Assembly: GCA_949840955.1 (NCBI GenBank)
Contig: CATKXV010000008.1
Location: forward strand, 56,007-120,006
Length of the DNA stretch: 64,000 nt
Origin: an uncultured Anaeroplasmataceae bacterium
GTDB lineage: Bacteria > Bacillota_I > Bacilli_A > Acholeplasmatales > Anaeroplasmataceae
Reading direction: 5' to 3'
Part shown: one piece after another, positions 2,119-40,410 of the stretch
Layout: every line of letters starts with the position of its first letter
How positions within the stretch are numbered: position 1 is the first letter of the stretch
The notes under the pieces: generated by a model
Told to the model about the DNA's origin: nothing
Databases searched by the model: none
Seen by the model: the letters and a program-made list of their open reading frames with translations, nothing else
Made by a program: the position numbers and the translations under genes

Positions 2119-2147
2119 TTGAAAAAGTTGACAAAGAAGAGTATAAT
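2119..2147 (+). promoter_or_regulatory. Sigma-A-type promoter for the 5590-aa gene
   Basis: TTGAAA (2119-2124), 17-nt spacer, TATAAT (2142-2147). Confidence 0.75.
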
Positions 2148-2245: not shown

Positions 2246-5200
2246 ATGTTAAAAAAATTGATAAATTCTGGGAAATGGAAACTTTTATCTATGGTATTTA
2301 TGGCAATAACAACCATTGCCTTGACAACTACCGTTCTTTTAGAGGTTTCAAATGTTTTTAGTCCTAAAGAAAAAGATAACACAGTAAAAGTTGAATATGA
2401 TGATGCTTATTTTAATGAAATGGCAGAAAAGAGCTTTGATACGTCTTTATTCATTTTCAACAATTATACAGATGCTACAGCTGCTCCAGATGGTAAAACC
2501 ACTGGATATTGGTTGACTGGAATTGATATGGATTATGACTATACCAGCTTTTATCCTGGCGTATCCAACAACAATGTGGCACGCGCTAGATATTTTGAAG
2601 ATCATGCTATCATCATTCCTGAAATGACAAATAATCGACCAGTCGTTGGTGTCGATTTTGAAACCAGAGGAAAAAATGTAGGTGCTACTCGAGATTTATT
2701 AGAAACCTCTATGTTCTCCTTGGTTAAAATGGTGAAGGTGCCTAAGTCTGTGAAAGCCATAAAATCTGGATCCTTCTTTGGTTTTGTAAGGTTGGAATAT
2801 TTAGACATTCCATTTATAGGAACAGAAAGAGGCTCTTCTGGTAATGGTATGAATCTATCTCTTACAGAAATTAGAAATAATTATGGACCTAACAAGCCAA
2901 GTAGTGATTCCTTTGGAACGATGTTTGGTGTTCCTTTTGATTCAAGTAATGTAAATCGTTGGGAGGTACAGTATCATACCAGCTGGTGGAATAAGTGGAC
3001 ATGGGATAATGATGCTAGAACAAGTGGACAAGCTGATTTGATTGATACTGAAAATGCAACCAATTTGGATGATATTAATCCAGATGTTGTTCGAGTTCTT
3101 TGGCAGGAGCTTTCCGGAGGAAGCGATAATCCAAATGATCCAGCAGCATCCTATAAATTTACCTTCTTATTACCTAAATCATTGAAAAGATTGATTGTAT
3201 CTGATGATACGAAGATTGGTAATAATGCATTAACCTCTTGTCCTGCGTTGAAAATTGAGGTTCCAAATTATTCTGGATCATCCTTGATGATTGGTAACTA
3301 TGCATTTTCTGAATGTTCTAAAACAACAGAAATTATATTACCAACAAGACCAAATGTGTCCTTTAGAAAAGGTGCATTTAATATGTGCCAAAGCTTGGAG
3401 AAAATTATTTTACCTCCAGCTATAAATGATATTGGTATTTCAATGTTTTTCAATGCGGTTAATTTAAAAATAATCTATATGCCTGCCAGTGTTCAAAATA
3501 TTGGAGATGGTGCATTTTATGGTTGTAACCTTTTAGAAAGAATTGCTTTATATAGTGGTAATGACAGCTCAAAGCTTACAGGTGATTTTGAGGCCGATTC
3601 TCAAAATGGTGCTGTTTTAAGCAGTAGCTATAAATTCAATTTACCCGCTGCCTTAAAAACCATTGGTACAAATGCATTTTATGGCTGTAACCATATGGAT
3701 GAAATCAATGTTCCTGAATCTGTACAATCTATTGGTTATGCAGCATTTGGGCAATGCTATAATTTGACAAAGATGCTATTACCTTTCATTGGAGCTCATA
3801 GTGATTCTTGTGATGGGGAAAATAATAAAAATAATTGTGAATTAGATAAGCTTGGTGGAGATAAGCACTTCCATGGCTTATTTGGTTGGATTTTTGGTTC
3901 TACAGGTAGCACAGTAGGGGATATGTATCAGGCTACACAAAAATATTTAAATGATGGAGGAGGAGAAGAAATATATTCCTTCTATATCCCTTCTAAATTA
4001 ACGGATGTTACGATTCGTGGAGAAACGAAAATTCAACATGGTGCTTTACAATCTTTAAAAAATATTGAGAATTTAACGATTAATGAAGCTGTGGGTGACA
4101 ATATAGCTGCCGGAGCTTTAAATGGCTGTTCTATGCTGAAGAGCTTATCTATTTCTTCCGTTACAAATCATTTAGGTGATTTGTTTAAGGGAGACGAATT
4201 TGAAAATAGTATTGTAACAAGAAATGATTCTCGTGTACCTTTGAATTTGAAAACCATTGTTGTTACAAATCAAGTCCATATTCCTACAGGTGCATTTGAT
4301 CATTGTACAAGAATTGAAAATGTTGAAATTGGTACAAATACCCAAATTATGGAAAGTGCCATTTTCTATAACAATGAAATGCTTACAAACCTGATTATTC
4401 CTTTTAAAGGAAGAAGTCGTGGAAATTGGCATCAGAACTATTGGTGGTGGGGAGATAATGCCATTCGTAACTCTGTTGCGTGGTTATTCTCTACCGTAGA
4501 TCATTCCAATACATATTGTAATAGAGCTACCTATTGGTGGTATTTAAGATATATTCCAAATCGTTTGAAGAGCTTAACTGTAACAGATGATACCTCAATC
4601 AATACGTATGCATTCCGTGGCATGAGCTCCTTAGAAACGATATCGATTACCAATGTTCCAAATAATATTGATAATTATTCCTTCTCTGGCTGTTCTGGAT
4701 TACAGGAGATTCATATTCCATATATTGGCTATGATTTGAATCCTACTGGAAAGACAGGCTATCAGCATACACTAGGCTATATCTTTGGATCCTCAGAATA
4801 TGAAGGCTCCTATCCAGCAGAGCAAGGTGGTTCAGTCTTCTATATTCCTGAAAAATTATCCATTGTCAAGGTTGGTGCTCCAGGAAGAGAAGAACAGCAT
4901 ATGTCAAATAAGATATTTGATTATGCTTTCCAAAATTGTGAATCTATAACAACAATTGATTTTTATCAGGCGAATATCCATGAGCTAGGTATTGCAGCAT
5001 TCCAAAACTGTGTCAATTTGTCTCGTATTAATTATCCAAATGCTCAATATATGCATGTTGGAGATTATGCATTCTATAATTGCCAAAAGGTATTGGATAT
5101 TGATGATTTCACACCAAATACCGTTACTACGATTGGAAATTATTCCTTCTATCAGACATCTGTTGGTAATAAAGTAAAGCCAGGTGTTGCTAAGGGTGAG

Positions 5201-8200
5201 CTTGTAATTGATAAATATACATCTATTGGAGATTATGCATTCGGAAACTGTTTACAGGTAGAAAAAGTATCTATTCCATCCTCCTTAAGCTTTATTGGAG
5301 AGGGTATGTTTGCTGGCTGTGCTTATTTGAGAGATGTTACTTTAACCAATAATAAGAATGTAAGCAAATATATGTTTAAGGATTGTGTAAGCCTTGAGGG
5401 TATTGACCTTTCTGGCATTACTTCCATTCCTGAGGGTTTATTACAGGGCTGTAAAAACCTATTATGGGATACAGAATATAATGAAGGTTTAATCTACGAT
5501 ACAAATACAACAGAAATTGGCAAATATGCCTTTGCTGGCTGTAGTGGATTAGATCAATTCATCCTAAATAATGCTTTAAAAACGATTGATGAAGGAGCAT
5601 TCCAGGGCTGTAAAGGAATTGAATATATGACAATTCCTCGTGAAACTACAGTAATTAATCCATATGGATGGATTGGCTGTAATGATAATTTCTTCTTCTA
5701 TGTTTATGAACCAGAGGAGAACTGGCCTAAAACTTGGGTTAATAACTGGAACTGCGATTATCCTGTTTATGTTTTAGGACAAATTAAGGATGATGTTTAT
5801 ACCTATGTCTTTGATGTTGTTGAAAAGAAGTTCTATATTACAGGATTAACACCTACGGGTACTTTAAATGGAATTATTACAATTCCACATATGCATAATG
5901 GTATTCAAGTTGTGGGTATTGATGAATCCAGAAGAACAGAGGAGGATATTTTAGCTGGTGCTAAGGATATCAAAACTCAAATGGGTATTTCTAAGGTCAT
6001 TTTACCTAAGAGCATTACGAAGATTGTTGGAGATCCTTTTGCTACTGGAATGCGTGTTGATGTTTATACAGAACTAACAAAGGATGAGGTTACAAAAATT
6101 TATAATGATCACTATGCTGTTTTAGAAGAGGAATTTACGCAGTGGAAAAAGGATAATTCTACGGCTAGTGAAACTCAAATAGAAAATACAAGAATTAATA
6201 TTTTCAAAAAAATTAAAGGATGGCTGCCATTTGCTCCAGATCGTACAGGAGTATGCAGTAATTCAAATAGTGAAAATCCTGGACAAGAGCTTTGGGATGA
6301 AAGAAACTGGATTACGGGTGGATTCTTATATTATAAAGATTACTGGCAATATGGTACAGGAGTATCCTTTAATATTCCTTATTTAAATATTGGTAACTTT
6401 AAGTTTACTTTAACCAACTATGATAATCATTATACAGGAAAGCCGATAGAACAATATGTTAGTGAAATTCAGCTTGTTGGTGAAATCTTTGAAAATGAAG
6501 AAATTGGTGTAACACGTAGTCTATTGTTTATTGGTGGTAGAAGTAGTGAATTTTCTCCACTAGACTTGTTAGGATATAAATATTCCAATAATGTGGATGT
6601 TGGTACTGCAACATTAGAATGCGAAGTATCTAATGATATTTTAAGAGATTTTAATAGAGAATGGACAAGCCTTGTAGTAGAAACAGATAATGGTATGAAA
6701 ATGCCGAATGCCTTACATGCTTTATACTTGGTGGGCAAAGTGAATCTGCATTATAAGATTCAAAAGAGCTTAATTACAGTCAAATCAATCTCTGGTAATT
6801 TTGTTACTAAGGTTTATGATGGTCAGGTGTATCGTTATGAAACATGGGCAAATGGTGAAATTTCAGGACTTGAGGGATTTGTTGGTGCTCAATTTAGTGG
6901 TCGTATCGAAACCAATAGAGAAAATGTAGGTCTATATGGTGAGGGTACTGGCTTATATTGGGGAAGAGATTGGCGTGTAACCTTAAATGGACGTAATATT
7001 ACGGACAACTTTACTGTTAAAGTTGAATTTATGGTAAATATTATTCCAATGGAAGTTGAGGTTAAATTCACAAAATCGGATGATCCAATTAATGGTGTCT
7101 ACCAATTCGTCGATTTATGGGAAGGGGAAAACACATATAATTATAATGGAAGAGAAATTCCTCTATTGAATTACCCATATATCGGTGGTCAAATTAAGCC
7201 ATATGCTGTGGCTGTAAATGTTGAAACACAAGAGGTTGTGAATAAGAGCATTTGTCAAGTGGTAGCTACACATATGGATAATAATCAAATTGGTACATTC
7301 CCATATGGAGAAAATGGAATGCGTTCTACCTATTTGATTTATGCCTATATTCACTCTAGTCATGCTAGAAACTTTAAATTGAAAATAAAGCAAGCAGATG
7401 GTACCTATATCGATTGTCCAGATTTGGTATTAGGTGCTACAAGCAAAGTTAAGGCGGTGCCTGCTGCTTATCGTGTAGGTAAAGGTAAAATCACAATTCG
7501 TTTTGATGAAAAATATACAATAAGTCCATATGAGGATTATTGGGTAAGAAGATATGGATATAGAGACACCAGTGATGGTGTGGATATACATCATGATAAT
7601 TTAGAAGGCTTGGGTACAAATTCATACCTTGTTGGTGCATTAAGATCCACAGGAGATGAACAGGCTGTTTATAGTGCTAAATTTGATTCAACAGTCGGTG
7701 GTGGATATCCAGGTACACATACCTTCCAGGATGATGGTAGAACAGCCCTTACATGGGATAATCTGTTTAAAAATAATCATTTGTATTTGAATTATTCTGG
7801 TATGGCAATTGACTTCATTCCGAGTGAGGATCAACCATTTATTATCTTTAACCCAGTATTGAAAATAGCGGATGAAACAAAATATTATGATGTAATTCTA
7901 GATGGTAGAATTCAAATATTCTATAATAACTTTAATCCTTCGTATTTTATAGGTATGGATAATGATGAGTATATGGATAACAGAAATCCAAATTATTTGG
8001 TATATCCTCGTACCATCACAGAAGAAACTGAAGGCAACAGACGTGAATATGAATACATTGAATATATGGTTGATGGAGAATTATATAAGTTAACTGTAGA
8101 TGATTTAACTGCTTTTGGAAATCGTTATCCAAATTACACGGTTGAGTATTATAAGGATGATGGTGAATCTCTAAATAATGAGGGTCCTCAGTTCCAAAAA

Positions 8201-11200
8201 ATTGGTGAATATGTATACATGTTCCAAATGTCTGCAAGACATTATAATACGTTGGCTAAAAATATTAAGCTTAAAACAGTAAAAAGTAATATAGTTATTG
8301 GAAATCTAGATAAGGTCTATGACCGTAATCCAGTGGATCCAGTTAATGATGGTAAAATTCTAAAAATAGGTAAGGATCAGACGCTGAACTTAGAATTTAG
8401 ATATTTTGACATCAATGGAAATCCATTAGGCAGTGCACCTAGAAATGCAGGAAGCTATAGTGTTAGAATCACTGCTCCTGAGGGTGAATACTTTAATGCT
8501 TACGATCAAACCCATCGATTCAAGATTTCAAAGCGTAAGGTTTATATTAATATTAGTGGAGAAAAGACCTTTGATCAAAATATCTTCAGTCTAACTCCAA
8601 TGACCTCTGATCTTCTAACCAATAGCGAGAATCCTGATGGTGGTCTATTGGTTGGAGATGAGTTTGTAGGTACGATTCAAACCAATGGCTTTGAGCCTCA
8701 AACCTATCGTTACCCAGATGATTTTATTTGGGCACCAGATTGGTCTATCTATTATAGTGATGATAACAGTGATGTATCTATGAACTATGATGTAATTGTT
8801 CGAGGCTCCTATCGAATTAAACCATTAGAGTTTGTTTATGAGGCTGGTGGATATAAGGAAGAATTTGATGGATATTATCATACTGGCTATGTTACTGTCT
8901 TATATCCAACCCCAGACAACTATGCTCCTGCATTTACTCCAGATGTAGCTGTGAAATGGAGCTTATCTGATTTAGATGTGGATTCTAGTAGCTGGTTATC
9001 TAAGGCTCCTGCCTTTGTAACTCCTGGAAAATATGAGCTTTATTATAAGATTGAAGCTCCATATTTTAGAACAATCAAAGGTAGAGTTATTGTAGAAATC
9101 ATTGCTTTAACCATGGAATATACCGACCCTGCAATGGATGAAAGTGATGGCTCTCATGATCATTGGATTTTTGAATATGATGCAAGAAGCCATGAATTTG
9201 AGGTTATTGTTACGAAGCCAGCAGCAGGTGCTAAGGTTTCCTATAGTGTGAATGGCTCAGCCTTCACTACAGAAATTCCATTGTTGATTAATTATGGTAC
9301 ATATAATATATCCTATAAGATTGAAGCTCCAAATTATAAGGATGTTGAAGAACGTCGTGTTGTCAAAATCGTCTTTGATATGAATGATCCCGATAATGAG
9401 GGTCTAGGAGATCCGATGGATATTGATGATTATTATGCTAATTTCTATAAGGGCGAATATGATGGTCAAGAGCATCAAATCGAGGCTGGCTTTAGTGATG
9501 CCTTCTTACTGAGCGTTGGCGGTGAGGATAATACTCATATTTTCTATTCCCTAGATGGTGGGAATACATGGACGGATAAAAATCCAGTATTCAAGGATAT
9601 TGGAAAGTATGAAATCACAGTGAAATATTCAGCAAAGGGCTATCGAGATGCTATGCTTCAAGGAATTGTTGAGATCACAGGCTTACAGCTCGATATAACT
9701 ACAATTCCATATAAGGGCTTCTTTGATGGACAATATCATATGATAGGTCTTGATTCAAAGACTGCGACACTACGCTTTAATGATGTAACGAAAACATATT
9801 TCTATAAAACAGATAAGATTGATGAAGAAGTAGAATTGAAATTCTATTATACGACAGATCCAAATGTTGTTGGTGGAAGTGGAGGCTGGTTGCCTACAGT
9901 TGTCACTAAAGATGGAAAAGCTGTTGTTGCGGGTATTAAGGATGCTGGTATTTATACGGTTTATGTCCGTATAGAGGCAAAATATTTCGATACATTAGTC
10001 ATTGAGGAATATACCTCTTTGGTTATTGATCGTCTAGAGAATCCAGATATTTCTATGGATAGTCCACAGCAATTTGAATATTCTAAGGCACCTTTGGATA
10101 CAAGCAAGATTGTAGTTGATACCATTGCAGATGGAGAACGTGCTTACTATTTCTATTCTGCTTATTGGGATAATGGTGTTCCTAAATATGATGAACCATT
10201 AAATCGTATTTTACCACCAGAGGAATTAGGTATCTATTATGTAGTTGTTCGTGTTGCTCCTTCAAGAAACTGTGCAGGCTGTGAAATCTCTGGATATGTG
10301 GAAATTGTACCACGAGTATTAGAGGTTCAATTTACTAACCCTCAATACTATGATGGAACATTAAAAACACCAGATGCATATGTTGTCACAGGAACAAGTG
10401 ATGTGATTCATTTATACACGGCGATTCGAGGCACGGTTGAGCCTATTGATGTTGGTTTCTATGAATTTGATGTAACCATGGTAGAAAAGAATCCGAACTA
10501 TGTTTTATCTACCAATATTATTGAAATGGAGATTCGTAAGCGTAATCTATTCTTCTATTTAAAAGAAGAGTGTCTTGCAAAAGAGGATGGATCCATTTGG
10601 ACTCATCTAGATTCACAGTATTATGATCGATCCAATCAGGTTGGGGATAATCGATGGCATATGCTCGGTGATATGAGTGGTACTCATACCTTCTATAATG
10701 AAGATACAAAGCAATTTGAAACGGTTACTTATGCAGGATTAGCGCCTGGACATGCTTTATCTGTTAGCTTAAAAACAAGAAAAGGTCAAAGAAATACATA
10801 TTTCAAATCCAATGTATTCTTTGAGGAAAATGAATATTATGCTAACGTTATTGATGTTGAAGATTTAAATATTTATGAAATTGACGGAAACGGAAACTAT
10901 GTTCTTGAAAATGGTATGCCAAAATCAGTGCTTGATTTCTATGATGTAGATTATTACATTATGGTTGATTTGGTTAACCCTGATGTGAATTTAAATGATT
11001 TAGAAATCAGAGATACCTATACATATGATGGACTTTTACATACCGTTCAAGTAAATTTACCTTCCTATTTGAAGGGTGGATATATCCGTTATAGAGGTTC
11101 TGAGGGTATTTATGGCTCTACACCTCCTAAATTTATAAACGTTGGTGAATATGAAATCAGATACTTAGTTGGTGCTGATGGATATGAAGAAACCTATGGC

Positions 11201-14200
11201 TCTGTTATTTTAAAGATTTTAGCAGCTGATTTAGATATTCAAATCGGTGATATGTATAGAACAGAGGATTTGAGCAAAACACCTCATGATGTTTATGATG
11301 ATAAGCCTCATAAGCATGACTATACTGTAGAAAATATCCTTTCTGGAAAGATTCAAGCCGATGTATTCAAATATTATAGTGCTAAGGATTATGAATATGA
11401 TGTTATTTTAGAGTATTATAGTCATGTCGATCCAAACAATTTGGTATTACCATATGGATTAGATCGACTTACAGAGGCAGGACATTATTTCCTAGTCATC
11501 TACTTTAAAGAAGATAATATGCGTTGGAATGAATCCTTTGTCGTATTAAATGTTGAATTAAAGCAGCGTGAGCTTCATATTGAAATTCCAAGAACCGATG
11601 ATATTGTAAAAGTATATGATGGTCAAAAGATTGTAATTCCATTGACAGAAGCTTCTATTGTAACGGAAAGAACTGAAACCAGTGGTTTGGTTCAAAACCA
11701 TACAATCAATCAGACTTTAGAAATGATGAAGCAATATTCTGTACAAACCATAAGTGCTGATGCTGGGGAATATGATTTATTAACTCAGTTTGAATTTGGC
11801 TTCATTGATATTCGTCGTACCGATGGTAAGGTAATTGATCAAGAAAATTATCGTCCAGTCATTCATGGTAATTTTAATGTTATCATTGAAAAGGCGTATT
11901 TAAAGGAGGGTGATTTTACTGTCGAGCCATATAAGGAAAAGGTGTATGATGGATATCGCCATGAACCAAATTATTGGTCCATCTCTGATGGTGAATTATT
12001 AATTACGTATTTCTTAATGGAGGATGTGGATGGTAATATCAATATTACCGAATTAAAAGGAGACCAAAAGAATGTTGGTCACTATCAGCTTCAGGTATCC
12101 ATTGGAGAGGGTAAGAATTACCATTCCTGGGAGGATTCCTATTGGATCATGCATTTGGTTGATGCTCCATATCTAGAAAGTGAGATTCTGTGTACCCCTA
12201 AAGAGGTAGAGGTTCAATGGGAGGATACAGAACAAACCTTTACTGGAGAATCCTTATCCATTAAGCCTTGGATTATAGATGCTGAGACGGATCATGAAAA
12301 TGAGATTCGTGTTGATTTGGTTGCTTCTTATTGGGATAATGATATCTATGATTGGGTTTCTGATGTAGTAAATCAGGGAACATATTTAGCTTTAGCTCAA
12401 TTTGATACGACAACTACCATTGGACAAACCTATAATAAGAATTATATATTAACCAATGATACACAGTATTTCGTTATCCTATATCTGACACTAAAGATTC
12501 AATTGGGTGACGGAGAGGAAACAAATGATATTGTATACTATAATACGCAAACGGTATGGCGTTCTGAATTGTATAAGGAAAATACGCCAAATGCAGCTGA
12601 AATTCTTGCAGAAACACCAGAATTACAGGCATGGCTAGAAAATATTACCTTAACCTCAAGTGCAGACCCACAGGCACCAGCATCCATATCCGCAAAGGAT
12701 TATATGCCTGGTACATATCGTGGAGATCGTTTTGATATCAACTGTACCATTCGGAATAAATATGGCGTAGATGTAACGAAATCAATTAACTTTGAAATTA
12801 TTGGTTCTGTAACGGTAAAAAGAGATGAAATTGATTTTACAACAAAGGATGTTACATTAGTATATAAGGAAAATAAAAATGATAGTACAGTTGTGGGCTA
12901 TACCTTTGAAGAATTAGAGTGCTTAGCTGTATCCAATCCAAAGAGTGGATATACCGTATCCAATTTCGTGATTAATGGTATAAATTATGGACATACCTTC
13001 CAAAATTTAAGCCAGGCTGGAGAATATGATATCAGCTTTGATATTCTAGCTTCTGGATATGAAGCTCAAAGAGCATCTGTCCATGTAACCATTACCCAAT
13101 TCCCAGCATATATGACCTTTGCTACAAATTTAACGAAGGCCTATGATGGGTCACCAGTAGATGTTTCTAAATTGGTTGAAACAAGTGCTTCTGGATTTAA
13201 TGGTACTGTTTCTGATTTGATTATTGAATATTTTGAATTGGTATATGAGAATGGTCAATACTTTGAGAAGCCTTTTGATTCTATACCTTTAAATGTTGGT
13301 AAATATCGTGTTCATATTACATCTGCGATAGATCAACTTGATGATGTTCAAAAGAATTATACAGAATTGGATGTAGTACAGGATTTTGATATTACAGCAA
13401 AAGAGATAAAATTAACCTTAGAAGAGGATATGGAGCTTTTAAGTGATGAGCTTTTAGGCAAATCCTGGACAAGTAAGCTATATACCTATGGTGCTGGAGA
13501 CAATCCATATATTATGTCTGGAGATGTCCTACAATTACAATTCTCTACAGATGTATTTACTAGAGGAAATTATATTGGAAGTAAGATCTTAAAGGTTACA
13601 ACAGAAGGTGCCTTAGATGCTACCAATACAACAAATATGGTTACGGAAAGTGGTAAGATATTTAATGTATCTTGGCGACTACTAAAAGCAAATGACAAGG
13701 GTGAAATTATCTATGATGAATATGAGGATCCAAATGATCCAACAGGACCTAAGCTTAAGGTTCCTCGTGATGTTTCACCAAACTATTCTATTAGCTTAAT
13801 ATTGAAGCTATCTGTTCATTATCCTTATATTCCTGTCACGATTGAAGGAGTAGAGGTAGATTATGATAAGGATGATCATTTTGGTAGTATTACATTTGCT
13901 GATTTTACTAGTGCTGATACATCCATATCATTCCCTAAGGATTGGTTTGAGCAAAATGCTGTTCAATTGTATTCTATCAATCGAGATGAACTGACAAATT
14001 CTCCTGAAACATGTAAGACAAGCATTGAGCAATTGGCATTCTCTGATCCGGGAAGCTATGTGATTTATTACAAGATTGATGTTAAGGATAATGCTACATC
14101 CTTAAAGTTTGAATCCAATACAGGCTCTTATATCATTAAGATTAATAAATTGGAAAGAACAGTAGTAGAAACACAGACGCTGGATAAGCAATATGATGGT

Positions 14201-29834: not shown

Positions 29835-29844
29835 ATTGTAATGT

Positions 29845-29873
29845 AAGACTATCTGATATTTATAGATAGTCTT
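29845..29873 (+). terminator. Intergenic hairpin (weak or attenuating terminator or processing site)
   Basis: Perfect 10-bp stem aagactatct-gatatttat-agatagtctt; no strong T-tract follows. Confidence 0.5.
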
Positions 29874-29918
29874 AGATTTTAAGTAAAAGAGGGAAACTTC
29901 TTTTATTTAGAATCTAAG
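29871..29918 (+). promoter_or_regulatory. 22-bp leader hairpin with GAAA tetraloop immediately upstream of the lipoprotein RBS
   Basis: cttagattttaagtaaaagagg-gaaa-cttcttttatttagaatctaag: 22 pairs, 3 of them G-U; followed by aaaaaggaagg and ATG at 29936. Confidence 0.65.
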
Positions 29919-29935
29919 AAAAAGGAAGGATTAAA

Positions 29936-31078
29936 ATGAAAAAACTATTGGTATTTCTTTTGTGCATAATTTGTTTTGTCACCCTTTCTTCATGTAGTCA
30001 TGACACGCAGCAGGGAGATGGAGAGCTTTTGTCTATAGAGCTTGAAACACCTGAGGATATAAAAGTAGAAAAAGGAACTGTATATAAGCCTGAGGGCATT
30101 ACCGTAAAGGCAGTATTTGAAAATAAGGTAAAGAATGTTACCCTACAAGCAGAATTTGTTATCCCGAATACAAACGAATTGGGAAAAAAGGAAGTTATTG
30201 TCAACTATCAAAGCAAGTCAGCTTCCTATGAAATAGAAATCGTTCCAGGAGTTCCAACAATTACCTATAGCCTAAGGGTTCAATCCGAGCCGAAGAAAAC
30301 AGAGTATTTTGAGGGCGAGCCATTAGATCTAGAGGGCTTAGAAATTGTCATGCTGAAAAACGAGAAGGAGCCAACAAAAATTCCTTTAGAACAATTGGAT
30401 ATGGTCATCAGTGTGAATGGACATACAGCAACGGATTTATCTGAATCAGGAAATTATAGAATCAGCTTTTCTATGAGGCATTTAGAAAATTTATATACAA
30501 CCTATATCTCTATCACGGTTTTAAAGAATATAAATCAAACTCAAAAAGATAAGCTTATGATTGATGAAAAAGAATCTAAATTGGTATATTGGTTAAATGA
30601 AGTATTTGATCCTTCAACGATTGTTGTTTACATAACGGATGAAAGTGGAACACATCAAAGTAAGATTCCAAATGATCGATGTAAATTCACTTTACTCTAT
30701 CACAGTATAGTATTAGAGGATTATAAATTTAGAAATGAAGGACCTTATATCCTTCGTGTAGAATTTGAGAATATCATTGGTGAGGCAGAAATTATTGTTA
30801 AATTTCGTCATATTGAAAAAAAGCTAGTACTGGATTTGACAGACCATAAGGTTCACTATACTGTAGGGGAAACCTTTACTTCTACAGGTCTAGTGATTTG
30901 GCTTTATGAAGATGATGTAAAGACAAGAATGATTCTTCCACAATATTGTGAATTTACCTTATATAAAGGTGGATTTGAAAAACCAGATTTGATTTTAAGA
31001 GAGCCTGGGACATATTCTGTTAAGGTTGAATATAAGCCAGAAAATATATCTGAAGGCTATAAAATAGCAGTTGTCTAG
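29936..31078 (+). CDS. Lipoprotein with bacterial Ig-like (Big_3-type) repeats
   Basis: Lipobox signal LLVFLLCIICFVTLSSC; repeated beta-rich segments (EKGTVYKPEGITVKAVFEN; YFEGEPLDLEGLEIVMLKN; YTVGETFTSTGLVIWLYED). Confidence 0.78.
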   Translation: MKKLLVFLLCIICFVTLSSCSHDTQQGDGELLSIELETPEDIKVEKGTVYKPEGITVKAVFENKVKNVTLQAEFVIPNTNELGKKEVIVNYQSKSASYEIEIVPGVPTITYSLRVQSEPKKTEYFEGEPLDLEGLEIVMLKNEKEPTKIPLEQLDMVISVNGHTATDLSESGNYRISFSMRHLENLYTTYISITVLKNINQTQKDKLMIDEKESKLVYWLNEVFDPSTIVVYITDESGTHQSKIPNDRCKFTLLYHSIVLEDYKFRNEGPYILRVEFENIIGEAEIIVKFRHIEKKLVLDLTDHKVHYTVGETFTSTGLVIWLYEDDVKTRMILPQYCEFTLYKGGFEKPDLILREPGTYSVKVEYKPENISEGYKIAVV

Positions 31079-31111
31079 AAGTAAAAGACTAAAATGTAAT
31101 GGAGTGATCGT

Positions 31112-34100
31112 ATGAAAAAGCTTTTTAAATTCATAACAGCATTAATGCTAGCAGCATTACTATTTTGTTTTGCTGGAAATCTATCATTAAATGATATAAA
31201 TGAGGAGAATAGAGCGACTGTATTAACCAGTGCTCCCCTAAATGAGCGTGCAGTTGCTACTCAGATTGAGGCTATTCGTTCGATTAAAGTAACAGCGAAT
31301 AATTATGAACAAAGCCAAACGGAGTTTGATAAAAAGCTTCCGACAAATTATTTGTTCTCTAATTTCCCTTATGCGAGTAGTGCCTATAAATTAAATATTG
31401 AGTTTGTTGATCCTACCTCTATAACGTCTGTGGAAATCACTCATAATAACATAACCGTTCCCAATTTACCTACCGATTATACTGATTTTTCTTTAGACCT
31501 ATATCATGATGTGTCTCAGATAACAACTGTTTCTACGTATGGGGATTTTTATGTGGATAAGCTCTTTTTGAATGTAAACGGAGAAAAAGCTTATATATCC
31601 ATATTAAAGCTTTTACCAGAGGACAATCAAGAATTAGGTACGATTCAAATTACAGCAGTTAGAGGTACAGAAGAGGTTGTTTTATGTGATTCCTTTGGAA
31701 CCTCTACATTAAACATTCAGTATCCTGATGGCTTAGATAAATTACCTGTTACATTTGATTCTATTCGATTAGCTGCTACTCCGAAATCCTCCAAATCTAC
31801 GGTGGAGATCCGTGTGAATAATATAATAAAAAGTGAACATCACTTTTGTTCTGATCCGTCCGATAAAACCTTGCTAGAAGCAAGTATATCTAATGAACAA
31901 AAGCTCAGTATAAGTGTAAAAGTGAGATCTGAAGCTGGAAATACGAAAGCCTATACAGGTACGATAACTAGAGGAACTGCTGATACAAATACGGAGTTTC
32001 AGATTGAGGATGAAAAGTACACGTATATTGACCCTAGTGGTAATGAAAAAGAAGTACCCTTTGAGTTGAAAATATTGACGAGAACCAATTCGGAAGGCGA
32101 AACAGAAATTGTTAATATTACAAATGCAGATAGCTTAATGAAATTTTCTACCATTAAGGCTTCTTTTAGAATTGTTCCTGCATCTTCTACAACAAAAATT
32201 TATATTCAAGGTGAGGAGTATACAAACATTCCTTTTGAAATAGATATTAAAAATGAAATGTCTTCTTTGACAAGACGTCTTAAGCTGACGGTTCGATCCC
32301 AAAAGCAACAAATATTGAGACCGGATAATACACTTGCAGGAGATTTTGAAACCAATATTGATTTAACCTCAAGTGGTCCTGAAAGAGATAAAACAATTCA
32401 TGAATTGGCTTTAAAGCATTTTGAGAAGGATGATGTCATCAGCAACCTATCCAATACAACCTTTGATGAGGATTTAAGAACATATACATTTATACTTAAG
32501 AAAAGCCTATGTGGAGAATCCTTCCGTTTTTCTATCACATTAGATGGAGAATATACGAAAGCCTATTTATCCACAACAGATCATGAGAATGTTATGAAGG
32601 ATGAGGGAAATTTATATCACCCAGACAAAGTATGGTCTATTGGAAATCCGATATATATTTATGTATTAAGTCAAAGTGGTGGCTCTGACTGGTTTAAATA
32701 TACGGTAAATACAGAATTTGCAGATGAAAGATCAGAAGAAAATGGAATTGAAAATATTCTCTTTAAGCATGGAGAAGAGGAAGTCGAGCTTCATTTTAAT
32801 GAAGGAATCTTAGAATATCCAAATTTTTCATTCCCTTATTCTGTGAAAACATTGACTGTAGAAATTACCTTAAAGGATGCAACAGAAACCTTAGTTAATG
32901 CTTCTAATTTCATATTTGCTGAGGTTAATGGTGATGTAAAGGTTGTTGTTACCCTTCAGCTTTCTGAAGGTGAAAATGTTTTTTACATTCAAGCCAGATC
33001 AGAAAAGGAAATTGCAGGATCTCTATATCAATTTCGGTTTACAAGACTTGAAGGAAATCAAGAAAATGATATAACCTCCCTTACAATTAATGGGATAGAT
33101 TGTAGTAGCCAAGATCAAGTAGGAACACATTATGATAAAGCCTTTTCTAAGGAAAATTTAAGCTTTTCTTATTATATGCAAAGAGGAACAAATGATGTTC
33201 TTTTTGAGATTACTACCTCAGCTGATTCTATTTTTACTATAAGTAATGCCACAAGAGGAAATAGCTTTAGAGTAGAGGATGGCACGTATCAAGAGTTTCA
33301 TATTCAGGTTCAATCCGAAAAGGAAATTGTTGATGGAGCTTTAGGAAAAGAGTATACCATAAGAGTTTATGTTGCCGATCAGGAAAACAAATTAGATGAT
33401 TTAAAGATTTATACGGATGAAACAAAAGCAACGGAAGTACTAGATCAAAAGGATAAGCATTTCATTTTCAATAAGAATAATAGCATTCAAACGAAATTTG
33501 ATATCAAATTTAAGACTAAGAAGGGCTATTTCTTACCAGTAAAGGCTGACTTTAATGGTAAAGTAAGCTTAAATCAAAATGAATTAGATTTTAGTAGCCC
33601 CTATGGTGTGGAATTTTCTACTGGAAGAAATTCATTGAAATTTGAAGTCTTATCTGAATTAGCTTGTTTGGCTGATGGTGATGAAAATATAACAGCTAAG
33701 CCTCAAAATTACACATTAACTGTAGAAAGAGCCTATGGGAAAACGATCGCTGAACTAGCAGAGCTTTCTATTCAAATTGATGGAACAGAAGTGAAGTTTA
33801 CAAACAATGGAACAGAAATTGAATTCCAAGAGGAAATTGCTGGTCCATATACAGCTGAATATGTATCTAAGGATGCCAATGAATTAACAATTACAGCTAT
33901 TCCTAAGGATGCTGATGCAACGATTCAAGAGGATTTAACTCAAGCAATTAATTTGACTGGCGATAACTTCAAGCAAGAGTTTACCATTACTGTACTTGCA
34001 GAGGATGGAGTTACGGATAAGGTTTATCGAATTGTTTTATGGAGAACGAGAGCTGATGCAAGTGAGGATAATGATATTGATGATTTTACAGCACATTTAG

Positions 34101-37100
34101 ATTCTGCTCCTTCCTTGGATATCTTAAATCCTAAATTCAATAAGGAAACCTCTCGATATGAAATAGAAGTTCCATATAATGATGAGGTATCTGTGTTTAT
34201 TAAAAAGGATGAGCATGCTGTATTATATGTATATGATGGAACCTCTGCCGTTCCTGAGGAAGGACAAAATGGTCGATATCGAATTCCACATCAGGATACC
34301 AATACAGAAAAAACATATATCATTTATGCTGTTTCTGAGGTTGGAATCAAGGGAAAAGAATATTCTGTTACAGTCAAAAAGAATCCAGATATGGATGCGA
34401 CCTTAAAGGAACTCCTTGTGGATGGGAATGCAGTAGATGGCTTTACACCAGGAATGGAGGGCGCTAGCTTTACCTATCTTGCAGGTGATTTGGATAGTGT
34501 TACTATAACAGCTACTCCGAATAACGCAAAAGCATCTATTACCAATCTAAATAATCCATATACCTTACATGTAGGAGATAATGAAATTGAAATTATCGTT
34601 TTAGCAGAGGATGAAACAACAACTCAAACCTATACCATCGTTGTGGTTAAGGATGCACCTGCGGTATTAGATGGATTAGAGGCTTCTGCTGAAGAAGGGA
34701 TAAATCTTTTAACACCTTCCTTTGAACCGAATACCTTTACAGGCTATGCTGTCCAAATAAAATATGCAAATCAATATGTGATTTTCACCTGTAGAACGGA
34801 ATATAACACTTGCAAAGTGATAGATTCTAAGGGAATAGAATATGTAAGTGATACGGAAGAAATTAAAGTAGAGAATATAGAGGTTGGAACAAGCCAATAC
34901 CGTATTGAAGTATCTACTAGAAGTGGGGTAAAGCAATACTATGATGTTGAAATAACCAAGGAAGCAGCTAGTACGGATGCTTCTTTAAGTGAATTTTTCA
35001 TAAATGGTGAAGCCGTTTCAGGCTTTACATCTGGTATGACGGGTGGAGAATTTGAGGTATTCATTAAGGATGCGGATACTGTTACTTTATCTGGTACGTT
35101 AACGGACGTGAATGCCTCCATTACTACCAATCCTTGTGAAACTCCTACTGATGCTGTTGTTGGAGAAAATACATTTGTTTTCATCACTACAGCTGAAGAT
35201 GGCATAACGACATGTGAATATACAGTTAAAGCCATTAAGGATGCGCCAAAGACATTGGATGATTTATCATTAAAATTAGATAGTGAGGAAAAAATTCTTC
35301 ATTTTGATTCAAAGAATTTTAAATATTCTATATTCCTAGAATATGGTCAAAATTCCTTAGTATTAGCCTTTAGAAGAACCAATGAAGCGCTGACGACCCT
35401 TCAGGTTTTAGGACCAGATGGCAAGGAAATCGAAGCTACAGGGGATGAATATATTCTAGATGATATTCAGGCTGGTATTTCTACATATAAAATTCGTATC
35501 ACAGCTGTAAGTGGTGATTATCAAGATTATGATTTAGAAATAACAGGAGAAAAAGGTAGTGATATTAACACGATTCAATCCTTTGAATATTATAAAGTTC
35601 CAGGGGATAATTTAACTACCTTAGAAATCAATGCAGATGAAACAACCTATTCCTATGTCGTTGATAGATCCTCTACTACATTTGATCCAAACATCACTTT
35701 AACTGATGAAAAATCAAGCTTAACCATGCCAACAGATCGTGGATTAATTGCAGGTATAGGAAATGAGAAAGAAGTCATTGTTACAAGTCAAACGGAGCTA
35801 ATTAGAACATACAAATTTATAGTTTATCCTTGTGATACTGAATTTGCAATCCGTGATATTTTTGTTAAGGATGTTGATACGGAGGATAATTTATTAAGTG
35901 TAGATGGCACTTACATTGATTATAAAAATCATATATTGGAAATAAAGGTTCCAAGTGATACGACTTCTATGAAATTAGATGTTGAAAAGCAAAGTGAATT
36001 TTCTTATGTCTATGTAAATCAAGCGCTTTTAACAGATGATACCATTTCTTTAGTTTCAGGAGAAAACCTCTTTACTATAGCCGTATATAGCGAGTATGCG
36101 AATGCAAATTCTGAAGCAACAGAATATATATCTGAAACCGTAACATTAAAAATTACAGTTGTAGTTGATCCTGTTATAACCATAACAACAGATGGCTTAG
36201 ATAGTCAAGAGCCGATCCAAGAAACTGTAGTATATGGTGAGGATAAGAGTATATATGTAGCTAAGCAGGGATACAATATTTTATCCGTTCAAATCGATGG
36301 AGAAGCTCCAGCTGAAATTAAGGATGAGTATTGGTTTGAAAATGTAAGAGAGAATCACACGATTCATATTGTTTATGAAAAGATTACCTATACCATAACC
36401 GTTCGTGTTACTGGAAATGGTGGAGCTTATGTCAATGAACAGAAGGTTGAAGCTGAAATTACCTTCCTCTATGGAGAAACCATTAAATTTAAATTTGTTC
36501 CAGAGGAAGGCTATAAGCTGACAGAAATTAAGGTTGACAATAGAAAAGTAAATATTACAAATGAATTAAATATTGGTACAATTGATGATCATGTTTTAGA
36601 ATTAACCTTTGAAATCATTAAGTATAAAATTACTTATGAAATTGAAGGGGATGGGGAAATTTCTCCGAATATAAATGAAATAGAATATAATCAAACGGTA
36701 ACATATGTCTTTACTCCTAGTATAGGGAAGAAGATAAAAGAAGTCATAGTAGATACGGTTTCTAAGGGGGCAATTGATAGCTTCACATTAACCAATGTCA
36801 AGGAAGAGCATACGATTCGTGTTATCTTTGAGGACCAAAAATTTTGGGTAACCCTGGATAAGCAGGGCTTAGGTGAAATAGATCCTGCAACTAATGTAGA
36901 ATATGTGTATGGGGCAACTCCAACCTATCGCTTTACACCAGAGGAGGGCTATCATGTTGGTTCTATTTTAGTAAATGGTGTTGCGTTAGGGGAAGAGGAA
37001 TTAGCCTCTGCTATAGAAAATGGGTATACCTTTGAAGGGATAACAGAAGAAATTACGTTAACCGTTGTATTTGAAATTAATCAGTATAAAATAGAAGTTC

Positions 37101-40100
37101 AGAATGCTGAGAATGGAACGATATCTGCACCACAAGAATCTTATACCCATGGAGATACAGCAAGCTTTAGCATAGAGCCGAATGAGGGCTTCCATATTCT
37201 TGAAATCAAAATCGATGGCATAAGTATAGATTTGAGTGGGTATAGTGAAGCAGAATTAAAGCAAGGGATTACCTATACCATTTCAAATATTACAAAGGAT
37301 TATACCATTGAGGTTCTATTTGATGGAGATAATACAACCTATAAGATTTATCACAGATTCCAAAAGCTAGGGGAAACGGGGTATGGTGAAAAAGAATTTG
37401 TTGAAGAAAAAACAGCAAAGGTTAATGAAGAAATCACTGTAAAGCCACAGGTGATTCCTGGCTTTGAAGCAGAGCCTGTTTTACCATTTCATTGTTTACC
37501 AAATGGGGAATCTGAGCTTGTAATTTCCTATTATCGTTTAAAGTTTGAAATTTCCTATGAAGAAAATCCCGGAATTAAATCTGTAACTGGCTTTGGAAGC
37601 TTTGAGTATGAGGCTGATGTAGAAATATTTGTAGAGCTGAATTTTGGATATCATTTTAGTGGCTTTAAAAGCAGCAACGAGGCATTGATAGGTAGCAGTA
37701 CTACAAATCCATATTCCTTTAAGGTTCCTGCTGGAAATGTAAAATTTAATGTAGATTTAATTCGTTATAATACCATTCAAATCAAAGAAACGAAAAATGG
37801 TATTATGGATATTGAGCCAGGAATATATGAATATCAAAAGGGCGAGAATTTAACCATTCATTTTAGACCATATGAAGGATATGTTTTAAAGAGTATCATT
37901 GTCGATGGTGTTGCATTACCTGATTATGAAGATACGCTGTATACCTTTGAAAATATAAATACGAACCATACCTTTGAATTGGTATTTGAGCAGATTACAT
38001 TTACTTTAACGGTTACCATTCATGGTACAACTGCTACCTTTGAAGAGGAGCATGCTATCCCTTATGGAACGAAATATGTATATACTGTAGTTCCTATTGA
38101 AGGATATGATTTAGGAAGTATTTATGTTGATGGTGTATATGTGTCTAATGGAAATACAACCTTTGAATTTGAAGAGGTAAAAGAGGATCACAATATTGAA
38201 GTTAACATCAGTCAGATTGTTTACACCATTGGTGTGACAATCAAGGGAGAAGGGCGCGTGAGTCCTGCTGGCGATAATCTTGTTACTCATGGTTCTGATC
38301 GAGTATTAACCTTTATACCAGAAACGGGATATTATATAAAGGATGTTAAAATTGATAACAGATCTTACGGTTCTATTTCGACATATACCTTTACTCGTGT
38401 AACCTTTGATCATAGAGTAGAGGTAGAGTTTGAGCAGATTATGTTTAGAATTCATATTCAAGCTCCTGTAAATGGTCGTATAGATTATGATGGTAGTCTA
38501 GAATTGCCATATGCCTCAAATCAAGAATTACGCTTTATTCCGAATGAAGGCTATAAAATAAAGGACGTATTCATTAATGATCGAAGTGTGGGGGCATTAG
38601 ATCGGTATACCTTTATCAATCTTCAAGAGGATCAAAATGTTGTTGTCGAATTTGAAGAAATTACCTATACAATTGAGGTAAGCATTAATGGTAAAGGAAG
38701 TGTTACCCCAGATATTGTCAATATTGTCGGGTATCATCAAGATATTTCCTTCACCTTTATACCAGAATTAGGATATAAAGTTTCTAGATTAGCCATTGAT
38801 GGTGAGGTTATTGATCCTGCCTATGAATATGCTTTTGAGGATGTTTTGAGCAATCATTTAATTAATGTTGAATTTGATCCAATTTTGTATACCATAACCA
38901 TTGATTCAAAGGGTGTAGGAACCTTCAATTCTGATTTGGTAACAGAGGTTTTATATAATGCAAATAAGGACATTATATTTACAACAGATCAGGGTCATAG
39001 AATAAAAACATTAGAATTAGATGGAACACCTGTCGTTGGTACGAATAAAATTTCACTAAGGGAAATCAAAGAAGATCATACAATCGTGGTTGAATTTGAG
39101 GAAATCTATTTTACGATTACAGTAACGAATGTGATTGGGAATGGAACAGTGACACCTGGAGATAGTATTGAGGTTCCTTATGGTGATAATAAAAACTATT
39201 CCTTTACACCAGATGATGGATATAAGATTAAAGAAATCAAAATTGATGGTAAGGCAATTGAAATCGTAAATTCTTATATGTTCTATAATGTTACAGAGAA
39301 TCATACGGTTTCAGTAGAGTTTGAAAAAATGCTCCATACCATTCATGTCATTTGTGGTGCTGGTGGTACAACAACGCTTCCAGAGGAAAATATCCTAGAG
39401 CACAGATCTGAATTGATGTGTAGATTTACACCTGATCCAGGCTTCCGTGTTCAGGAGGTTCTTGTTGATGGTAAGAGTGTTGGCTCAATGGAATCCTATT
39501 TCTTTGGAAATGTATCTACAGATCATACCATAGAGGTTGTGTTTGAGGAAATATTATTTGGATTTACTATATATTTTGGTCCTGAGGGCACAGTTACCTA
39601 TCCTACAGAGGAGGGACCTGTAAAGCCATCAGATACAGTATATGTACGCTCTGGAACAGATTTTGTTTTACATATAGAAGCGAAGGAAAAGTATGTTCCA
39701 AAGATCATGATTAATGGTGAAAAGGTTGATTCTACAAATGAATTAAAGTTCAATGCCGTAGATAAGGATTACTTTATCCAAGTAGAATTTGTTGAAATGA
39801 TTCATTTAGATATTTCAAAAGAGGGAAATGGAACAGTGCCTGAATCGACCTCCTATGAATGGCGTACACCAGTTACCTTAGTATTTAAGCCTGAGGTAGG
39901 ACATAAGGTAAAGGAAGTCCTTGTTGATGGGAAAAGCGTAGGAAGTGTAGAAGACTATACCTTCCCAACCTTAGTTGTAGATCATACCGTAAAAGTTATA
40001 TTTGAGCCAATTCAGTATAAGGTTTCTTATAAGCTTTATGGAAAAGGAACCGTCAGTGGAAATGTTGATTTAGATACGATTACCTATGGCGAATCCTGCG

Positions 40101-40363
40101 AGATTACGATTACCCCAGAGGATGGCTGGCAAGTATCCATTGTCTTTGTGGATGGAGAAGAGGTTAAAATGAAGGATGGTAAGGTTACTGTCCAAAATGT
40201 CAAGGATGATGTTGAACTGGTAGTCTACATCTCTGAAATTCCAGTGAAAGCTATTCCTTTATGGATATTTATCGTCCTTGGTGTTATCATATTGATTCTT
40301 TTAATTCTATTAATTGTCGTAAGTATTTGGAATAGAAAGAGAAAAGATCGATATCGCTATTAG
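31112..40363 (+). CDS. 3083-aa membrane-anchored protein: cadherin-like repeats (paralogue of 19015..26919) followed by InlB/Flg_new-type repeats
   Basis: Signal peptide; ELGTIQITAVRGTEEVVLCDSFG parallels ALGTVQIVANNGSDTTICNTFSG of the upstream paralogue. About 15 units such as GYKIKEIKIDGKAIEIVNSYMFYNVTENHTVSVEFE. C-terminal TM WIFIVLGVIILILLILLIVVSIW plus basic tail. Confidence 0.87.
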   Translation: MKKLFKFITALMLAALLFCFAGNLSLNDINEENRATVLTSAPLNERAVATQIEAIRSIKVTANNYEQSQTEFDKKLPTNYLFSNFPYASSAYKLNIEFVDPTSITSVEITHNNITVPNLPTDYTDFSLDLYHDVSQITTVSTYGDFYVDKLFLNVNGEKAYISILKLLPEDNQELGTIQITAVRGTEEVVLCDSFGTSTLNIQYPDGLDKLPVTFDSIRLAATPKSSKSTVEIRVNNIIKSEHHFCSDPSDKTLLEASISNEQKLSISVKVRSEAGNTKAYTGTITRGTADTNTEFQIEDEKYTYIDPSGNEKEVPFELKILTRTNSEGETEIVNITNADSLMKFSTIKASFRIVPASSTTKIYIQGEEYTNIPFEIDIKNEMSSLTRRLKLTVRSQKQQILRPDNTLAGDFETNIDLTSSGPERDKTIHELALKHFEKDDVISNLSNTTFDEDLRTYTFILKKSLCGESFRFSITLDGEYTKAYLSTTDHENVMKDEGNLYHPDKVWSIGNPIYIYVLSQSGGSDWFKYTVNTEFADERSEENGIENILFKHGEEEVELHFNEGILEYPNFSFPYSVKTLTVEITLKDATETLVNASNFIFAEVNGDVKVVVTLQLSEGENVFYIQARSEKEIAGSLYQFRFTRLEGNQENDITSLTINGIDCSSQDQVGTHYDKAFSKENLSFSYYMQRGTNDVLFEITTSADSIFTISNATRGNSFRVEDGTYQEFHIQVQSEKEIVDGALGKEYTIRVYVADQENKLDDLKIYTDETKATEVLDQKDKHFIFNKNNSIQTKFDIKFKTKKGYFLPVKADFNGKVSLNQNELDFSSPYGVEFSTGRNSLKFEVLSELACLADGDENITAKPQNYTLTVERAYGKTIAELAELSIQIDGTEVKFTNNGTEIEFQEEIAGPYTAEYVSKDANELTITAIPKDADATIQEDLTQAINLTGDNFKQEFTITVLAEDGVTDKVYRIVLWRTRADASEDNDIDDFTAHLDSAPSLDILNPKFNKETSRYEIEVPYNDEVSVFIKKDEHAVLYVYDGTSAVPEEGQNGRYRIPHQDTNTEKTYIIYAVSEVGIKGKEYSVTVKKNPDMDATLKELLVDGNAVDGFTPGMEGASFTYLAGDLDSVTITATPNNAKASITNLNNPYTLHVGDNEIEIIVLAEDETTTQTYTIVVVKDAPAVLDGLEASAEEGINLLTPSFEPNTFTGYAVQIKYANQYVIFTCRTEYNTCKVIDSKGIEYVSDTEEIKVENIEVGTSQYRIEVSTRSGVKQYYDVEITKEAASTDASLSEFFINGEAVSGFTSGMTGGEFEVFIKDADTVTLSGTLTDVNASITTNPCETPTDAVVGENTFVFITTAEDGITTCEYTVKAIKDAPKTLDDLSLKLDSEEKILHFDSKNFKYSIFLEYGQNSLVLAFRRTNEALTTLQVLGPDGKEIEATGDEYILDDIQAGISTYKIRITAVSGDYQDYDLEITGEKGSDINTIQSFEYYKVPGDNLTTLEINADETTYSYVVDRSSTTFDPNITLTDEKSSLTMPTDRGLIAGIGNEKEVIVTSQTELIRTYKFIVYPCDTEFAIRDIFVKDVDTEDNLLSVDGTYIDYKNHILEIKVPSDTTSMKLDVEKQSEFSYVYVNQALLTDDTISLVSGENLFTIAVYSEYANANSEATEYISETVTLKITVVVDPVITITTDGLDSQEPIQETVVYGEDKSIYVAKQGYNILSVQIDGEAPAEIKDEYWFENVRENHTIHIVYEKITYTITVRVTGNGGAYVNEQKVEAEITFLYGETIKFKFVPEEGYKLTEIKVDNRKVNITNELNIGTIDDHVLELTFEIIKYKITYEIEGDGEISPNINEIEYNQTVTYVFTPSIGKKIKEVIVDTVSKGAIDSFTLTNVKEEHTIRVIFEDQKFWVTLDKQGLGEIDPATNVEYVYGATPTYRFTPEEGYHVGSILVNGVALGEEELASAIENGYTFEGITEEITLTVVFEINQYKIEVQNAENGTISAPQESYTHGDTASFSIEPNEGFHILEIKIDGISIDLSGYSEAELKQGITYTISNITKDYTIEVLFDGDNTTYKIYHRFQKLGETGYGEKEFVEEKTAKVNEEITVKPQVIPGFEAEPVLPFHCLPNGESELVISYYRLKFEISYEENPGIKSVTGFGSFEYEADVEIFVELNFGYHFSGFKSSNEALIGSSTTNPYSFKVPAGNVKFNVDLIRYNTIQIKETKNGIMDIEPGIYEYQKGENLTIHFRPYEGYVLKSIIVDGVALPDYEDTLYTFENINTNHTFELVFEQITFTLTVTIHGTTATFEEEHAIPYGTKYVYTVVPIEGYDLGSIYVDGVYVSNGNTTFEFEEVKEDHNIEVNISQIVYTIGVTIKGEGRVSPAGDNLVTHGSDRVLTFIPETGYYIKDVKIDNRSYGSISTYTFTRVTFDHRVEVEFEQIMFRIHIQAPVNGRIDYDGSLELPYASNQELRFIPNEGYKIKDVFINDRSVGALDRYTFINLQEDQNVVVEFEEITYTIEVSINGKGSVTPDIVNIVGYHQDISFTFIPELGYKVSRLAIDGEVIDPAYEYAFEDVLSNHLINVEFDPILYTITIDSKGVGTFNSDLVTEVLYNANKDIIFTTDQGHRIKTLELDGTPVVGTNKISLREIKEDHTIVVEFEEIYFTITVTNVIGNGTVTPGDSIEVPYGDNKNYSFTPDDGYKIKEIKIDGKAIEIVNSYMFYNVTENHTVSVEFEKMLHTIHVICGAGGTTTLPEENILEHRSELMCRFTPDPGFRVQEVLVDGKSVGSMESYFFGNVSTDHTIEVVFEEILFGFTIYFGPEGTVTYPTEEGPVKPSDTVYVRSGTDFVLHIEAKEKYVPKIMINGEKVDSTNELKFNAVDKDYFIQVEFVEMIHLDISKEGNGTVPESTSYEWRTPVTLVFKPEVGHKVKEVLVDGKSVGSVEDYTFPTLVVDHTVKVIFEPIQYKVSYKLYGKGTVSGNVDLDTITYGESCEITITPEDGWQVSIVFVDGEEVKMKDGKVTVQNVKDDVELVVYISEIPVKAIPLWIFIVLGVIILILLILLIVVSIWNRKRKDRYRY

Positions 40364-40374
40364 AATTTCATAAT

Positions 40375-40410
40375 AAAAAAAGATACTACATTTCTGTGGT
40401 ATCTTTTTCA
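40375..40410. terminator. Bidirectional terminator between convergent genes
   Basis: aaaaagatactaca-tttc-tgtggtatcttttt, A-tract and T-tract flanks. Confidence 0.75.

Follow-up and report, generated by a model that had tools for sequence, protein, structure and literature searches.

We have analyzed a cluster of giant surface-protein genes in a 64,000-nucleotide stretch of DNA (the window) from an uncultured Anaeroplasmataceae bacterium with a genome of 2.1 Mb (contig C8). Five consecutive open reading frames (ORFs), here called g1 to g5, run along the + strand from position 2246 to 40363, and their coordinates confirm the gene order given in an earlier reading of this DNA (the original prediction). 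The first three genes appear to form a conserved surface-assembly module, in which g3 would be a membrane cyclic di-GMP (c-di-GMP) receptor/scaffold that acts on the cytoplasmic tail of g2, a giant anchored by a transmembrane (TM) helix. We give this reading about an even chance of being correct. All feature coordinates below refer to the + strand of the window.

The association of g3 with g2 was examined in 56 Anaeroplasmataceae genomes, in 161 genomes of the order, and in G432, a genome of another Bacilli family. Thirteen of the 56 family genomes, spread over four genera, have an ortholog of g3, as does G432 (n = 14); the order as a whole (161 genomes) yielded no other. The relatives with the same gene include one Anaeroplasmataceae metagenome-assembled genome (MAG) and two MAGs labeled 'uncultured Mollicutes'. 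All 14 orthologs lie directly downstream of the TM-anchored giant, starting within ~21 nt of its end. A search of the family with g2 picked out precisely the 13 genomes that have g3, with no match in the remaining 43, and the chance of such a matched 13 among 56 is 5e-13 in a calculation that ignores shared ancestry. Thus the EAL gene, which the original prediction had linked to the giants, was nowhere found separated from them, and a chance neighborhood was rejected in view of the synteny and the matched presence. We also rejected other ~900-aa EAL proteins of the relatives as orthologs, since these are ordinary sensor-type proteins encoded away from giants, and giants were beside other EAL genes in 0 of 16 fetched neighborhoods. 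The module is patchily distributed, being present in 7 of 11 genomes of its own genus, which argues for a unit that is gained or lost together. Homologs of g1 stand directly upstream of g2 in G003, G005, G006, G007, G009 and G066, scored only where the contig extends far enough. On these comparisons g1–g2–g3 is the conserved core and g4–g5 is variable; of the proposed synteny of all five families, it is the core that stands.

The giant g2 (19015..26919, 2634 aa) is a cadherin-like protein (Cadherin-like match, E 1e-51) that ends in a TM helix and a conserved basic cytoplasmic tail (VNRDKYGAINKRRKK..., 26761..26916). Across 14 orthologs, that from the other Bacilli family included, the tail has a mean pairwise identity of 72%, compared with 36% in the adjoining ectodomain. 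Its last 15 conserved residues follow the pattern VN[RK]DK[YF]Gx[IV]xK[KR]RKK (VNRDKYGxINKKRKK), with small departures. Such conservation beneath a divergent ectodomain suggests that the tail has a fixed intracellular partner. The only other protein that we observed always to accompany g2 is g3.

The product of g3 (26916..29834) is a protein of 972 aa, for which the AlphaFold model (mean pLDDT 86) shows one long N-terminal helix followed by GGDEF and EAL folds. A single TM helix runs into a linker helix (residues 15-49; 26958..27062), with ~15 residues outside the membrane and neither a HAMP nor a periplasmic domain. The GGDEF domain (27063..27560) has IEFDKF at the position of its motif and scores 16.6 bits, under the Pfam cut-off; the motif is lost in the aligned orthologs too, in agreement with the degeneracy originally proposed. 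It is followed by the EAL domain (27561..28295; match E 4e-50). Beyond this are two elements that had been overlooked: a predicted coiled coil with an acidic linker (28476..29195), indicated by an SMC-like match and by composition, and a predicted C-terminal domain with a YjbR/DUF1801 (frataxin-like) fold (29265..29831).

The EAL domain presents some features of an active phosphodiesterase and lacks another. The ExLxR motif and the metal ligands are retained in 13 of the 14 orthologs, this one included, and are worn in G005. The consensus of loop 6 is absent. This loop is DFG(T/A)GYSS in active enzymes, where it is reported to be essential for activity (PMC12943098); LapD, an inactive receptor, has not conserved it (PMC3032553). 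In our protein the loop reads DDFGKELSS, and it is degenerate in all 14 orthologs (DDFGKE or DDFGKD in 13, DNFGAES in G005). The loop glycine is replaced by glutamate or aspartate in 13/14, compared with its retention in 32 of 44 other EAL domains. Furthermore, the second glutamate of EGVE is mostly lost in the genus labeled g1 (a genus label, not the gene). The orthologs are divergent, at about 40-90% identity, and the EAL domains of these operons form one clade (support 0.947). The domain aligns with those of MorA, DosP, MucR and RocR, and its best PDB relatives, DosP, MorA and RocR, are enzymes; Foldseek comparison of GGDEF-EAL structures cannot tell enzyme from receptor.

The genome also encodes a putative c-di-GMP enzyme. 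A 956-aa protein encoded on contig C2 combines REC and HD-GYP domains with the only intact GGDEF found in the genome (RVGGDEF), and is possibly the main c-di-GMP enzyme, judged from its domains. Its gene adjoins one for a 915-aa hybrid-kinase-like protein (C2:61414-67043, L135). Strong GGDEF matches are present in all 12 other family genomes that have the module. The other EAL domain of the genome, on contig C12, is badly degenerate, there is no PilZ receptor in the genome, and an Rfam scan found no c-di-GMP riboswitch in the window or in the loci of several relatives, so that g3 appears to be the best-preserved candidate receptor seen in the genome. From its motifs and the putative c-di-GMP enzyme, a c-di-GMP-linked role for g3 is plausible.

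The C-terminal domain of g3 has no sequence match in Pfam, NCBIfam or the PDB, nor in plasmid and phage collections. A fold search with its model returned YjbR and DUF1801 frataxin-like folds (E 0.02, probability 0.99), a resemblance that is weak and not conclusive. In G067 a YjbR-like domain constitutes the cytosolic tail of an MBG surface giant of 2368 aa (P0009). Moreover, one to three YjbR-like domains, and no EAL domain, are present in small TM proteins whose genes immediately follow, and overlap, those of other TM giants. In the present genome a 4746-aa TM giant is followed, with a 23-nt overlap, by a 734-aa TM partner having three such domains (C9:18722-35144). The same layout is seen in G006 (contig C41, a 4759-aa giant and a 494-aa partner), and in G005 (contig C89) a giant of 2990+ aa is accompanied by a 332-aa partner with one domain. 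These partners beside other giants indicate that the layout of a TM giant plus a YjbR-like partner exists in at least two locus types, of which g3 is the EAL-carrying version as judged by domain content. The domain is not exclusive to giants, since it is found also in multi-TM proteins without an adjoining giant. At two further loci (L129:9326-16429 and L049:2184-3326) the cytosolic part of membrane proteins comprises an acidic linker, a YjbR-like domain and then a ribosomal uL15/L27A-like stretch.

Of the remaining genes of the locus, g1 (2246..19018) encodes a 5590-aa LRR/MBG-type giant (LRR_5 match, E 3e-96) with no C-terminal TM helix. The dockerin assigned to it originally survives as a dockerin-like end recognizable by eye; no Pfam dockerin was found in its C-terminal third at E<=0.5. 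With no Pfam dockerin in g1, and no cohesin found on searching the genome, a cellulosome scaffold based on a dockerin-cohesin pair was rejected. g4 (29936..31078) encodes a 380-aa Ig-like lipoprotein with a Big_3 domain, conserved in part of the genus, and g5 (31112..40363) a 3083-aa giant with Cadherin-like and InlB-type repeats. The latter has its own C-terminal TM anchor, as proposed, and is a paralogue of g2 with a different cytoplasmic tail, a relationship that had escaped notice. The dockerin apart, domain matches likewise uphold the earlier calls for g1 to g4. Both g4 and g5 are accessory: an unrelated protein of ~1500 aa replaces g5 in G003 and G009, other genes lie downstream of g3 in G005, G022, G024 and G066, and g4 is absent in G005.

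The genes of the core are closely coupled, with the ATGA overlaps reported at the g1/g2 and g2/g3 junctions both present, and each of the five genes is preceded by a stretch resembling a ribosome-binding site. The site upstream of g1 taken to be a promoter is indeed promoter-like (TTGAAA-17-TATAAT, 2119..2147, 11/12 matches), and a similar stretch occurs at the equivalent place in G006. The terminator placed at 40375-40410 corresponds to a terminator-like hairpin (40377..40408) whose T-run is poor. A conserved double RNA hairpin lies at the 3' end of g3 (29846..29916). The first stem or the whole element is present in seven genomes; 26 pairs are intact in 6/6 aligned sequences, five of them with double changes, and the covariation exceeds that in all 500 shuffles and in slid controls. 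No Rfam family corresponds to it. As it lacks a proper T-run, processing or stability control seems a more likely function than termination. In G005, which has no g4, the element is again found behind g3, consistent with its marking a boundary of the core. Because g4 and g5 are variable, and are split from the core by this element, the single transcript of ~38 kb to 40.4 kb previously envisaged is doubtful.

Some 95 kb around the locus is mostly occupied by giant surface genes. An ORF entering the window (3-1919) is the tail of a single ORF of 16,204 aa (C8:9311-57925, with 25 unread bases bridged as N), which terminates in a dockerin that Pfam does recognize. At 51833-54619, ~11 kb downstream of the cluster, is a gene for a 928-aa Transglut_core protein. 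The genome encodes penicillin-binding protein transpeptidases, for which reason we rejected a wall-less setting. Peptidoglycan genes are reported to be kept in 40-60% of Anaeroplasmataceae genomes, walls being mixed in the family (PMC10868615). From these two observations the organism is probably walled.

The mechanism that we propose would operate as follows. g3, inserted into the membrane by its single TM helix and facing the cytoplasm, would engage the short conserved tail of g2, the membrane-anchored giant. The EAL domain would bind c-di-GMP, probably more as a receptor than as a good enzyme, the coiled coil would self-associate, and the YjbR-like domain would dock the giant or inner machinery. 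In this way c-di-GMP would govern from inside the cell how the g2/g1 surface layer is clustered, retained or displayed. The conservation of the module and of the tail, the exact co-occurrence, the domain layout, the EAL motif pattern and the putative c-di-GMP enzyme are seen in the sequences themselves, and from them we infer the contact between g3 and the tail, the binding of c-di-GMP and the direction of control. A number of observations weigh against the proposal. The catalytic metal ligands are mostly preserved, which would permit hydrolysis. In G005 the EAL domain is eroded further (DNFG, QGN) while the module is retained, a hint that c-di-GMP may not be essential. The EAL-free partners of other giants indicate that the partner role needs no c-di-GMP. 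Conservation of the tail may serve membrane insertion or another partner, and common descent could underlie part of the g2/g3 co-occurrence.

The first of these points leads to an alternative in which g3 is an active membrane-bound phosphodiesterase setting the local level of c-di-GMP, its place in the operon serving only for co-regulation with surface proteins. The metal-binding and ExLxR residues of 13 orthologs, the enzymes among its structural relatives and the poor state of the C12 EAL domain are all consistent with this. However, the alteration of loop 6 in every ortholog (PMC12943098, PMC3032553) and the loss of the EGVE glutamate in most of genus g1 are not what is expected of an enzyme; the genome encodes an HD-GYP domain at another locus, and a lone enzyme requires neither a coiled coil, a YjbR-like domain nor strict pairing with g2. 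We regard this alternative as rather unlikely. The EAL-free partners and the further losses in G005 would be explained if g3 were a structural membrane scaffold for the giant, with GGDEF-EAL retained as a dimerization fold devoid of a nucleotide role. Yet preservation of ExLxR and the metal ligands among such divergent orthologs is hard to reconcile with a dead fold, and we consider this, too, improbable.

Two further possibilities are drawn from known systems. The combination, in a relative of the mycoplasmas, of huge surface proteins with an inner coiled-coil protein in a single gene set recalls the gliding machinery of Mycoplasma mobile, whose three huge surface proteins are encoded jointly with a small one in the order gli123-gli349-gli521-gli42 (PMC7052211). 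The analogy is one of consecutive huge surface-protein genes in a related lineage. The M. mobile set has no EAL protein, and we found no sequence relation or homology; its inner machinery relies on paralogs of the F-type ATPase (PMC7052211), of which there are none among the scanned window genes, and the present cells are probably walled. A gliding or force-transmitting machine is thus very unlikely. The original prediction looked instead to LapD of Pseudomonas, also a membrane protein with a degenerate GGDEF and an EAL domain tied to a giant surface protein. The analogy fails in architecture. LapD has HAMP and periplasmic output domains and sequesters LapG (PMC3032553), whereas g3 has one TM helix, no output domain, and the additional cytosolic coiled coil and YjbR-like domain; it matches the LapD model only from position 230 to 646 of 647, with 74 bits against a cut-off of 1020. 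True LapD/LapG-type control, with c-di-GMP on g3 governing proteolytic release of the giant, would find some support in the adjacency of such a protein to a giant. Set against this, g3 has no extracytoplasmic domain, g2 and g5 are each anchored by a C-terminal TM helix of their own, and no LapG was found among the scanned window proteins, where only the Transglut_core protein turned up (no genome-wide search for Peptidase_C93 was made). We would be most surprised if this explanation were correct. It remains most likely that g3 serves a giant surface protein as its dedicated membrane c-di-GMP receptor/scaffold.

Among characterized proteins the putative receptor g3 may be compared with YdaK of the Bacillus ydaJKLMN operon, a membrane receptor with a degenerate domain encoded within the operon of a surface product (PMC9800504). 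The position of g3 directly after a TM giant corresponds to this; YdaK is a degenerate-GGDEF protein controlling a polysaccharide, whereas g3 is associated with giant proteins. YkuI, a degenerate EAL protein of Bacillus, is also regarded as a possible receptor (PMC9800504), but it has no known TM-giant partner and its EAL domain is followed by an unrelated C-terminal domain. Giant1-5 of Apilactobacillus kunkeei are likewise a run of adjacent genes for giant surface proteins, in an organism whose genome is small; they have different folds, and the abstract describes no c-di-GMP-type partner (PMC12863079). In Clostridioides difficile, surface adhesins are under c-di-GMP control via riboswitches (PMC6447587).

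In Gram-negative bacteria the LapD systems are already known to place giant adhesins under post-translational control by c-di-GMP. We would suggest, tentatively, that the present module represents a new inside-out signaling system in monoderms, in which c-di-GMP is read by a membrane EAL/coiled-coil/YjbR protein that itself acts directly on the cytoplasmic tail of a giant adhesin, and in which neither a protease, a HAMP domain nor a riboswitch takes part. If the proposal for g3 is true, the one-to-one pairing of a receptor with an anchored giant, whose conserved tail would be its target, would be a distinct solution in the lineage next to the mycoplasmas, and would provide a first functional handle on the YjbR-like domain found repeatedly with surface giants.

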